Positions 6,548-11,203 of a stretch of DNA of 64,000 bases are shown piece by piece. Position 1 is the stretch's first letter. Each line of letters begins with the position of its first letter. The notes below the pieces were generated by a model, which worked only from the letters and a program-made list of their open reading frames with translations, was not told the DNA's origin and searched no databases. The stretch is from Marivivens donghaensis (GTDB taxonomy: Bacteria; Pseudomonadota; Alphaproteobacteria; Rhodobacterales; Rhodobacteraceae): positions 62,001-126,000 of the forward strand of contig NZ_JALNPR010000003.1 in the NCBI RefSeq assembly GCF_023541015.1. The letters are read 5' to 3'. Both the position numbers and the translations under genes were made by a program.

Positions 6548-8389
6548 TTAACCGACCGCAATCGGCTCTAGGATATCCCCGAACAAGAAGTCCGACGCCG
6601 TCAGATCGTCTGCATTCATGTTTTCCATACGGATCATCAGGTCGCCGTATTCAATGATCGCGGCGCTTTCGTCTTGGGACAGCATAAGGTCGCCGAACGA
6701 GCCGCCAAGGATCTGCACCTTATCCTCACCGATGGTAAAGTCGCCGATCACGTCGGACCCGTCACCATCCGCAAAGTCAAAGATGTCATTGCCCGCATCA
6801 CCAAACAGCGCGTCGTCGTCAATGCCACCTTGGATAAAGTCGTCACCGACCCCGCCGTGGATCGTATCGCTGTCATCGCCACCGTAGATGGTATCGTTGC
6901 CGCCACCGCCATAAATGTCGTCGTCATCGTTGTCGGGGGCCAGATCAGGTGTTTCGCCTACATCAGCGATGTCGAGGATTTGCACCTCATCAGGGCCTTG
7001 GCCGCCATAGATCACGTCGTCGCCAGAGCCGCCGTTGATATAGTCCGACCCTTCACCACCGATGATCATGTCCTTACCAAAGTTGCCGTAGAGCGTGTCG
7101 TTGTCAAAGCCGCCGTCAATGCTGTCATCACCCTTGCCGCCCCAAACTTGGTCCGCGTCATCGCCGGTGATGATCGTGTCAGCGCCGTTGCCGCCCCAGA
7201 CCGTATCCATATCGTCTGTTGGATCGGTGTCTGCGGTGAACACACCTTCATAGGCCATGTCTGGCGTGCCGCTCACAGTACCAAGGGCGATATCGGCAAC
7301 CACGACCTCGGTCGCCAGATTGCCCGAAGTGTCGATCACATCATTGCCCGCGCCGCCCGTCACAACATCGCTGCCATTGCCGCCGTTGATGGTGTCATCA
7401 TCCGCACCACCGTGCAGTTTGTCGTCACCGTCACCGCCATAGATCAAATCGTCGCCCGAATTACCGAGGACCACATCATCACCAGCATCACCGTAGAGCA
7501 CGTCCTTGCCCATGGCACCCCAAATGCTGTCGTCGCCCGTGCCGCCGCTGACCGTATCGTCGCCGCGACCACCATAGAGCGCGTCATTGCCAAGGTTGCC
7601 ATTGATCGTATCGTTGCCAGCCCCGCCCGAGACGTTATCCGCCCCAGCACCGCCGCGCATGATATCGTTGCCAGCGCCACCCTTGAGCAGGTCGCCGCCT
7701 TCGCCGCCAAAGACCTTATCATCACCGAACCCGCCGTAGATCGAATCTTGACCGTTGTTTCCGTTCAGTTCGTCATTGCCGCCTTGGCCATAGATAATAT
7801 CGTTGCCCACACCACCCGAGACGAAATCATCGCCCGTGCCACCGCGCACCGTGTCAGCCCCCGCGCCCGCGTCGATCACATCATCGCCATTAAAGCCGCG
7901 CAGGTCGTCATTACCGCCATATCCGTTGATCTGATCGGCAACCGCGCTGCCATTGATCGTTTCACCGTCTTCGGTGCCATTGAAAACCGCGAGGTCCGCA
8001 TCAACGTTGACGCTAAAGTCATCAATCGGGGTGACGGCGATATCCGTTAGGTCTTCGCCATCGACGGTCAGTTCCAATTTCACCAGACCATCGGTCGAGT
8101 CATATTCGACCGTCACAACGCCAGTGTCGGAATAGACATAGAGCGTATCGCCCGTTTGGGTCGGCCCAATGCCGACGATCTCTTGGGTGCCTTGCGGGAT
8201 GACGTTGTCATCGCCATCGACCAGCGCAACGAACAAATCTGTCGCCCCATCGGTCGCAAGCGATGGTTCCTCCCAGATAAAAACGCTCGTCCCTGCCGCG
8301 TTTCCAATATCAACCGCTGGGACCAAATAGGTTACACCAACTGCGGTAACGGCCTGACGTGCAGCAATCAGATCATTAATCAAAGTCAT
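6548..8389 (-). CDS. RTX (hemolysin-type calcium-binding repeat) protein, probably secreted by type I
   Basis: A 613-residue acidic protein. Residues 1 to ~143 form a non-repetitive domain I do not recognise. After that come about 30 glycine/aspartate-rich nonapeptides of the GGxGxDxUx type (for example GGAGNDTIN, GGTGDDSIW), which fold into a parallel beta-roll on binding calcium. Two inserts without repeats interrupt the array in its second half. The C-terminus (FDFADGDGSDVIGDF then an acidic, hydrophobic tail) resembles the uncleaved type I secretion signal; there is no Sec signal peptide. The start at 8389 follows GGGGGA. No HlyB/HlyD/TolC genes are in the window, so the exporter must be elsewhere. 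No enzymatic domain is visible; function unknown. Confidence 0.88.
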   Translation of the reverse strand: MTLINDLIAARQAVTAVGVTYLVPAVDIGNAAGTSVFIWEEPSLATDGATDLFVALVDGDDNVIPQGTQEIVGIGPTQTGDTLYVYSDTGVVTVEYDSTDGLVKLELTVDGEDLTDIAVTPIDDFSVNVDADLAVFNGTEDGETINGSAVADQINGYGGNDDLRGFNGDDVIDAGAGADTVRGGTGDDFVSGGVGNDIIYGQGGNDELNGNNGQDSIYGGFGDDKVFGGEGGDLLKGGAGNDIMRGGAGADNVSGGAGNDTINGNLGNDALYGGRGDDTVSGGTGDDSIWGAMGKDVLYGDAGDDVVLGNSGDDLIYGGDGDDKLHGGADDDTINGGNGSDVVTGGAGNDVIDTSGNLATEVVVADIALGTVSGTPDMAYEGVFTADTDPTDDMDTVWGGNGADTIITGDDADQVWGGKGDDSIDGGFDNDTLYGNFGKDMIIGGEGSDYINGGSGDDVIYGGQGPDEVQILDIADVGETPDLAPDNDDDDIYGGGGNDTIYGGDDSDTIHGGVGDDFIQGGIDDDALFGDAGNDIFDFADGDGSDVIGDFTIGEDKVQILGGSFGDLMLSQDESAAIIEYGDLMIRMENMNADDLTASDFLFGDILEPIAVG

Positions 8390-8549
8390 TCTAAAATCCC
8401 CCACGATTAAACAACCATAGGGACCATGCCTCATTTTCGACACAATCGTAAAGAAATTCCTAATGCGGTGGCTCTGCCGCCCTCACAAATCATGTGAATA
8501 ACTCGGATTGGCCTGAACTGAGAAACAATCTCGCCCAAAGCCCTGCGAT

Positions 8550-8672: not shown

Positions 8673-8700
8673 TTGACCTCGCTTTTCCGGCGTGCATAAG
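8673..8700 (+). promoter_or_regulatory. Predicted sigma-70 promoter of the ilv leader and ilvBN
   Basis: A -35 box TTGACC at 8673-8678 and a -10-like CATAAG at 8695-8700 are separated by 16 bases. Transcription would start near 8707, about 24 bases before the leader peptide ATG. Confidence 0.55.
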
Positions 8701-8730
8701 GTTCGCGCACGCAATCGAAAGGCCCGAGGG

Positions 8731-8778
8731 ATGAAAAACCTTCTAGTAGTGGTGGGAAAATGGCGCATGGGCCGGTAA
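8731..8778 (+). CDS. ilvBN leader (attenuator) peptide, 15 residues
   Basis: A short open frame reading MKNLLVVVGKWRMGR then TAA. The five consecutive Leu-Leu-Val-Val-Val codons (8740-8754), including the uncommon CTA and GTA, are what is expected of a peptide whose translation senses branched-chain aminoacyl-tRNA supply. AAAGG lies 8 bases before the ATG. The sequence from 8762 onward can form either an antiterminator or the terminator at 8806-8832. Too short for ordinary gene finders, but the context with acetolactate synthase makes it convincing. Confidence 0.88.
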   Translation: MKNLLVVVGKWRMGR

Positions 8779-8832
8779 CGGTTTTACCATAACGGTTCCC
8801 CATGCGCCCCCGAAAATCTCGGGGGCTTTTTT
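8762..8832 (+). promoter_or_regulatory. Transcription attenuator of ilvBN: antiterminator and terminator
   Basis: Terminator: GCCCCCGA (8806-8813) pairs with TCGGGGGC (8819-8826) around a 5-base loop and is followed by six T (8827-8832). Antiterminator: GGCGCATGGG (8762-8771) pairs perfectly over 10 bases with CCCATGCGCC (8799-8808), which takes away the first three bases of the terminator stem. The first arm lies in the last codons of the leader peptide. A ribosome stalled at the Leu/Val codons leaves it free (read-through), while one that reaches the stop codon covers it (termination). TAACGGTT is repeated at 8776-8783 and 8790-8797 within the loop. Confidence 0.85.
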
Positions 8833-8884: not shown

Positions 8885-10627
<1,743 letters not shown>

Positions 10628-10639
10628 GGAGGACTAAAG

Positions 10640-11203
10640 ATGTCTGCACTACGGATCAAAAAAGGCTCCTCCTCTCACTCGGCTTATGACCTACGCTCGA
10701 CCTATGGCGACACCGTTGAACGCCATACCCTTGCGGTCACTGTGATGAACGAACCGGGCGTCCTCGCCCGTGTGATCGGCCTGTTTTCGGGTCGCGGCTA
10801 CAACATAGAAAGCCTCACCGTGGCCGAAGTCGACCACGAAGGTCACAAGTCGCGCATCACCATCGTCACCTCTGGCACCCCGCAGGTGATCGTTCAGATC
10901 AAAGCCCAACTGGGCCGCATCATTCCCGTGCTCGAGGTTCATGACCTCACCGCCGAGGGACCGAGCGTTGAGCGTGAACTGGGCCTCTTTAAGGTCGCTG
11001 GCAAAGGCGAGCAGCGTGTTGAGGCGCTCCGACTTGCCGATATCTTCCGCGCCAGCGTGGTCGACACAACCCTGCAGAGCTTTGTGTTCGAACTCACTGG
11101 CACGCCCGAGAAAATCGACGCCTTTGCTGACCTGATGCGTCCCTTGGGTCTGGTCGAGGTGGCCCGCACGGGCGTTGCGGCCCTCTCGCGCGGCGATCAC
11201 TAA
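10640..11203 (+). CDS. ilvN: Acetolactate synthase, small (regulatory) subunit
   Basis: A 187-residue regulatory subunit that activates the large subunit and confers feedback inhibition by valine. The N-terminal ACT domain begins at HTLAVTVMNEPGVLARVIGL and FSGRGYNIESLTV, the ligand-binding glycine region. The second half is the C-terminal small-subunit domain (AEGPSVERELGLFKV onward). AAGGAGG precedes the ATG by 8 bases. It is the last gene of the operon and is followed directly by a strong terminator. Also called ilvH in many annotations. Confidence 0.96.
   Translation: MSALRIKKGSSSHSAYDLRSTYGDTVERHTLAVTVMNEPGVLARVIGLFSGRGYNIESLTVAEVDHEGHKSRITIVTSGTPQVIVQIKAQLGRIIPVLEVHDLTAEGPSVERELGLFKVAGKGEQRVEALRLADIFRASVVDTTLQSFVFELTGTPEKIDAFADLMRPLGLVEVARTGVAALSRGDH

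Follow-up and report, generated by a model that had tools for sequence, protein, structure and literature searches.

A probable ribosome-mediated attenuator of ilvBN in Marivivens donghaensis and its apparent relatives upstream of exporter genes in Alphaproteobacteria

The 64,000-nucleotide stretch of Marivivens donghaensis DNA analysed here (hereafter, the window) carries an element upstream of the acetolactate synthase genes ilvB and ilvN that very probably controls the ilvBN operon by ribosome-mediated transcription attenuation. The presence of an attenuator at this position is well supported, because the coding conservation of the leader, its sensing codons, the covariation of the terminator, and the gene context agree; they also bear out an earlier note, made from the sequence alone, which had proposed a translation-coupled attenuator in front of ilvBN. 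The element belongs to a kind already described: branched-chain leader attenuators have been reported before alphaproteobacterial ilvB/ilvI (Vitreschak et al. 2004, as cited in PMC1273637 and PMC2573895), as has an ilvBN attenuator in Caulobacter (Tarleton et al. 1994, as cited in PMC4117421). As far as the citing papers describe them, the ilvB/ilvI attenuators resemble the element in the window in their branched-chain codons, short leader, intrinsic terminator, and acetolactate synthase genes, whereas the leader here has no Ile codons. The less ordinary aspect is that, in many alphaproteobacteria, what appears to be the same switch also precedes a gene for an export pump, unrelated to ilvBN. 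The features of the window are as follows.

8673..8700, + strand: probable promoter, TTGACC-16 nt-CATAAG (sequence reading; the start would then lie near 8706)
8717..8722, + strand: putative Shine-Dalgarno sequence of the leader, GAAAGG (sequence reading)
8731..8778, + strand: leader frame MKNLLVVVGKWRMGR, with ATG at 8731, 15 codons, and TAA at 8776-8778; open in 77/77 aligned leaders
8740..8754, + strand: sensing codons CTT CTA GTA GTG GTG, Leu-Leu-Val-Val-Val (codon tally, 77 leaders)
8763..8771, + strand: P1 5′ arm (proposed antiterminator), within the last part of the leader frame; a tenth, unconserved pair here involves 8762
8799..8807, + strand: P1 3′ arm; 8808 pairs with 8762 here, and the arm is also kept in exporter-linked copies
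8806..8832, + strand: intrinsic terminator, 8-bp stem at 8806-8826 and six U at 8827-8832 (terminator scan and covariation)
8885..10627, + strand: ilvB, acetolactate synthase large subunit (PRK09107 equivalog, 1124.7 bits, cut-off 974)
10640..11203, + strand: ilvN, acetolactate synthase small subunit (matches to PRK11895 and TIGR00119 exceed the cut-offs)

Read as sequence, the region holds three features of such attenuators: a short frame, presumably translated, in which the end-product amino acids are encoded, a predicted intrinsic terminator between leader and first gene, and downstream genes assigned to the synthesis of the amino acids sensed. The promoter at 8673-8700 was not called by a consensus scan, and TTGAC...CATAAG is also found upstream of the leader in relatives L096-L098. 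A riboswitch or T-box was rejected, as a scan of 4227 Rfam families gave no such match at E values as high as 5.

To place the leader in context, 80 Rhodobacterales ilvB loci were fetched and 77 leaders, the window's included, were aligned; all 77 copies sit upstream of ilvB. The 15-codon leader with five consecutive Leu/Val codons agrees in its coordinates with the earlier note, and across the alignment both the frame and the Leu/Val(/Ile) codons are conserved, as an attenuator would predict. Counted from the Arg codon at the start of the P1 5′ arm, codons −8 to −4 have a Leu, Val, or Ile share of 100, 99, 99, 94, and 92%. Within the ten codons preceding the arm, in-frame stops occur in 0 of 77 leaders, compared with 71 and 7 of 77 in the other two frames, and these three amino acids account for 52% of codons in the leader frame versus 12% and 4% in the others. 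The end of the frame, RMGR followed by the stop, is almost unvarying, and its codons CGC ATG GGC CGG are near-constant at both the codon and the amino-acid level. Rare codons are over-represented in the same tally: CTA accounts for 43% of the Leu codons in leaders but 1.4% of those in ilvB genes, GTA 51% versus 4.2% of Val codons, and ATT 47% versus 13% of Ile codons. The influence of codon choice on attenuator sensitivity is treated in PMC1183508.

That the leader senses Leu and Val without Ile is correct for the window and fails as a rule, since Ile codons are present in 66 of the 77 leaders and absent from 11, the window among these. Two relatives of the same genus (L168 and L217) also have no leader Ile codons; Leu/Val-only sensing in the window is a lineage trait, and on these counts it was rejected as a special feature. 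The E. coli leader ivbL is an earlier example of sensing Leu and Val without Ile. A direct repeat, TAACGGTT, to which the earlier note had drawn attention, proved private to the window, the only one of the 77 sequences in which it occurs twice; its first copy consists of the stop codon and a CGG, and CGG follows the stop in 49 of 77. We rejected it as a functional element.

The terminator at 8806-8832 was confirmed. It reads GCCCCCGA-AAATC-TCGGGGGC at 8806-8826 and then TTTTTT, and five of its eight pairs have changed on both sides in the alignment (22 such cells; 0 of 500 shuffles were as good). The whole region folds better than shuffled sequence (z = −2.4). Stem P1 joins GGCGCATGGG at 8762-8771 with CCCATGCGCC at 8799-8808 through 10 bp, and its conserved 5′ arm lies within the end of the leader gene, which doubles as an arm just as the earlier note had seen. 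P1 is nearly unvarying among the 77 leaders: four pairs never change, and the one compensatory change, A-U to G-C, affects one pair in one sequence. The covariation expected of both stems is therefore present in the terminator and almost lacking in P1. P1 varies too little for covariation within the order to be informative, and on the exporter-linked set described below P1 covariation was no better than shuffles; for both reasons it was rejected as proof of an antiterminator. An internal hairpin at 8774-8788 (GGTAA/TTACC) was likewise discarded, being absent from the consensus fold. Directly 3′ of the U-run, ATGCG or GTGCG is often found (e.g., L001, L004, L018, and L023), and this could pair with the P1 5′ arm.

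The earlier note held that a 10-bp antiterminator excludes the terminator. The arms are complementary as described; 43 of 77 relatives do not keep the outermost pair, 8762-8808, and the folding models argue only weakly for exclusion of the terminator by P1. The two structures overlap by 3 nt in the window and by 2 nt where the outer pair is missing, and the minimum-energy fold accommodates the complete terminator alongside a P1 of 7 bp (−38.9 kcal/mol), compared with −37.4 kcal/mol for the full 10-bp P1 with a shortened terminator. The word "excludes" is too strong because of this small overlap and this coexistence. When the arm was masked, as by a ribosome at the stop, each of the three basal terminator pairs had a probability of 1.00; with the arm free, the computed values were 0.78, 0.83, and 0.93. 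In these models P1 may contest the part of the terminator adjoining the U-run, which could be enough if P1 forms first. Trp-type attenuators and ivbL have fully alternative 2:3 and 3:4 hairpins, whereas the window has a single conserved P1 that barely overlaps the terminator, and the exclusion mechanism would be weaker than the textbook picture.

We built a covariance model, R1, from the 77 ilvB leaders (window among them), and it matched 266 of 295 Rhodobacterales genomes, with matches in 108 of 113 genera. The genomes are a sample rather than the full set, and the attenuator anatomy is documented for an element in about 90% of the Rhodobacterales genomes sampled. The window's own genome has one good match only (100.5 bits, E 1.3e-23; next best E 0.14), and a second copy there was rejected because none rose above noise. 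The genomes of named loci (n = 46) have one copy each or, in L044, zero; L044 is a species of Nereida that lost the element, and Nereida ignava (L068) keeps a divergent copy. R1 found no match in g221, a genus-level group of at least 12 genomes, and in the three g221 genomes inspected (L258, L260, and L262) the region upstream of ilvB contains no branched-chain leader and no terminator. Upstream of ilvB in L256, L259, and L261 are divergent branched-chain leaders (MSVVLISSGGLNGSV, MRSCILVIAKRAPRRM, and MGRILVVLARRGRMG) with terminators and altered arms, which are missed both by R1 and by a second model, R2, that was trained on the window, L169-L179, and L100-L107 and is not independent for these. 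Weak matches (L108-L118 and L189-L196, as inspected) and the second matches in L180-L182 were discarded, having no leader or no consistent target gene.

R1 was built from ilvB leaders only, and it also matches other alphaproteobacterial families, down to E 1.4e-15. Outside Rhodobacterales, the next gene is not ilvB but a Bcr/CflA family MFS transporter gene, an identity that three tested proteins bear out (TIGR00710, 212-224 bits, cut-off 200.9). A second copy of the element occurs in 11 Rhodobacterales genomes (L169-L179), each time directly upstream of a Bcr/CflA-family exporter gene. R2 added five genomes outside the order, where the element was found in 13 genomes of 10 families, 13 of 13 before a Bcr/CflA-type gene and none before ilvB. 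The exporter-linked element lies at about 1501-1610 of each locus (L169-L179, L100-L107, and L184-L188). No comparable branched-chain leader plus terminator was found at the ilvB homolog of 14 exporter-copy genomes, two of them Atu_C8-type (see below). Thirty exporter leaders contain 100 Val, 19 Leu, and 17 Ile codons; GTA is over-represented here too (29% versus 4.4%), and a few leaders, e.g., that of L188, are poor in Val. The exporters of the eleven Rhodobacterales genomes all fall in a single supported clade together with members of two further families, a mixture suggestive of some transfer, and the nearest MFS exporter homolog in the window's genome is a distant paralog that lacks the element upstream. 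A single attenuator family thus seems to serve two unrelated genes, ilvBN and the exporter; the homology presumed between the two contexts is based on sequence in common rather than on an RNA tree.

A further relative is the Rhizobiales sRNA Atu_C8 (Rfam RF02502). The window scores 24.8 bits against it, below the curated cut-off of 50, and is not a member. By our own reading, the RF02502 consensus contains the same GCGCAUGGG/CCCAUGCGC stem, a readable leader, MIILVVGPRMGRAV followed by a stop, and then a terminator; the common stem, branched-chain leader, and terminator are what it shares with the window. Six of 36 genomes of one family exceed the RF02502 cut-off (L249-L254), and all six loci have branched-chain leaders (e.g., MIGIETIVVVGRRVGKAV and a stop). 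They differ from the window in preceding a Bcr/CflA-type gene and in that P1 and terminator lie about 8 nt apart without overlap. Given these leaders and this target, Atu_C8 is probably the terminated leader of a related attenuator, a reading that covers six loci of one family.

We lean, with some reserve, towards an alphaproteobacterial RNA family attached to two unrelated genes: a Val-sensing exporter attenuator in most orders, with Atu_C8 as its terminated leader, that was taken over by ilvBN in Rhodobacterales, where sensing widened to Leu/Val/Ile. By parsimony only, the exporter link would be the older of the two. If it holds, one attenuator serves two unrelated genes and an orphan database sRNA is explained; the exporter would be induced when charged Val-tRNA is lacking, e.g., by a valine analogue or a translation inhibitor, which gives a testable reason to seek a valine-related inducer or substrate of the Bcr/CflA-family exporter. 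No report of the exporter link or of this reading of Atu_C8 was found in the searchable literature, within whose reach most subscription papers do not fall.

For the ilvBN element itself, we infer a response to starvation that would depend on ribosome stalling, on the order of folding, and on antitermination by P1. When charged Leu- and Val-tRNA are plentiful, the ribosome would reach the stop at 8776 and cover the arm at 8763-8771; the terminator at 8806-8832 would then form, and transcription would end early, yielding a short leader RNA. Under scarcity of Leu or Val, the ribosome would stall at 8740-8754 and leave the arm free, because the arm starts about 11 nt past the point where the last sensing codon begins. 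P1 would form first and contest the basal terminator pairs beside the U-run, and transcription would run into ilvBN. The switch would thus turn on the genes for valine, leucine, and isoleucine synthesis under shortage.

It is possible, if rather doubtful, that the attenuator follows this logic with P1 as something other than a base-pair-excluding antiterminator, e.g., a polymerase pause hairpin that synchronizes ribosome and RNA polymerase, and that another pairing or the stalled ribosome itself blocks termination. The small overlap, the coexistence of both stems in the minimum-energy fold, and the modest weakening of the terminator on unmasking the arm all speak in the models against exclusion by P1 and for such a role, and P1 is more tightly conserved in sequence than pairing demands. 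The absent overlap in Atu_C8-like loci likewise favours it and makes a simple antiterminator less convincing for all members of the family. However, inspection found no alternative antiterminator pairing, and losing the pairs beside the U-run could suffice if P1 forms first. An action in trans of the terminated leader RNA or of the RMGR peptide, with cis control of ilvBN as only part of the role, is improbable. The near-constant end of the frame would fit such an action, as would the Rfam entry of the related family as an sRNA and the precedent of peTrpL, the trp leader peptide of Sinorhizobium meliloti, which is reported to act in trans (PMC7298713); yet a double role in coding and in the P1 arm also explains the constancy, and the peptide end is altered in exporter-linked copies (CMVR, RLDR, and RPGR). 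A chance frame before an ordinary terminator has the shortness of the frame in its favour and is scarcely credible, as the frame, its sensing codons, and the pairing of the terminator persist across 77 leaders and across 266 of 295 genomes, which refutes it.

Back at the ribosome-mediated attenuator, comparable systems are known elsewhere. E. coli ivbL and trp-type attenuators likewise place a ribosome-read leader upstream of a terminator, and the window leader is much shorter than ivbL, the 32-aa leader of E. coli ilvBN (PMC6123439). The Corynebacterium ilvB-II uORF motif (PMC10272879, PMC11109978) and the Rhodobacterales cysS uORFC-8-2 motif (PMC8632094) both share with the window a leader of cognate codons, a terminator, and a matching gene, but the former has another sequence in another phylum and the latter differs in sequence, gene, and amino acid. 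On the − strand of the window, at 6548-8443 and divergent from the ilvBN leader, lies a long frame whose translation is rich in GGxGxD-type repeats and has an RTX-like look, suggestive of calcium binding.
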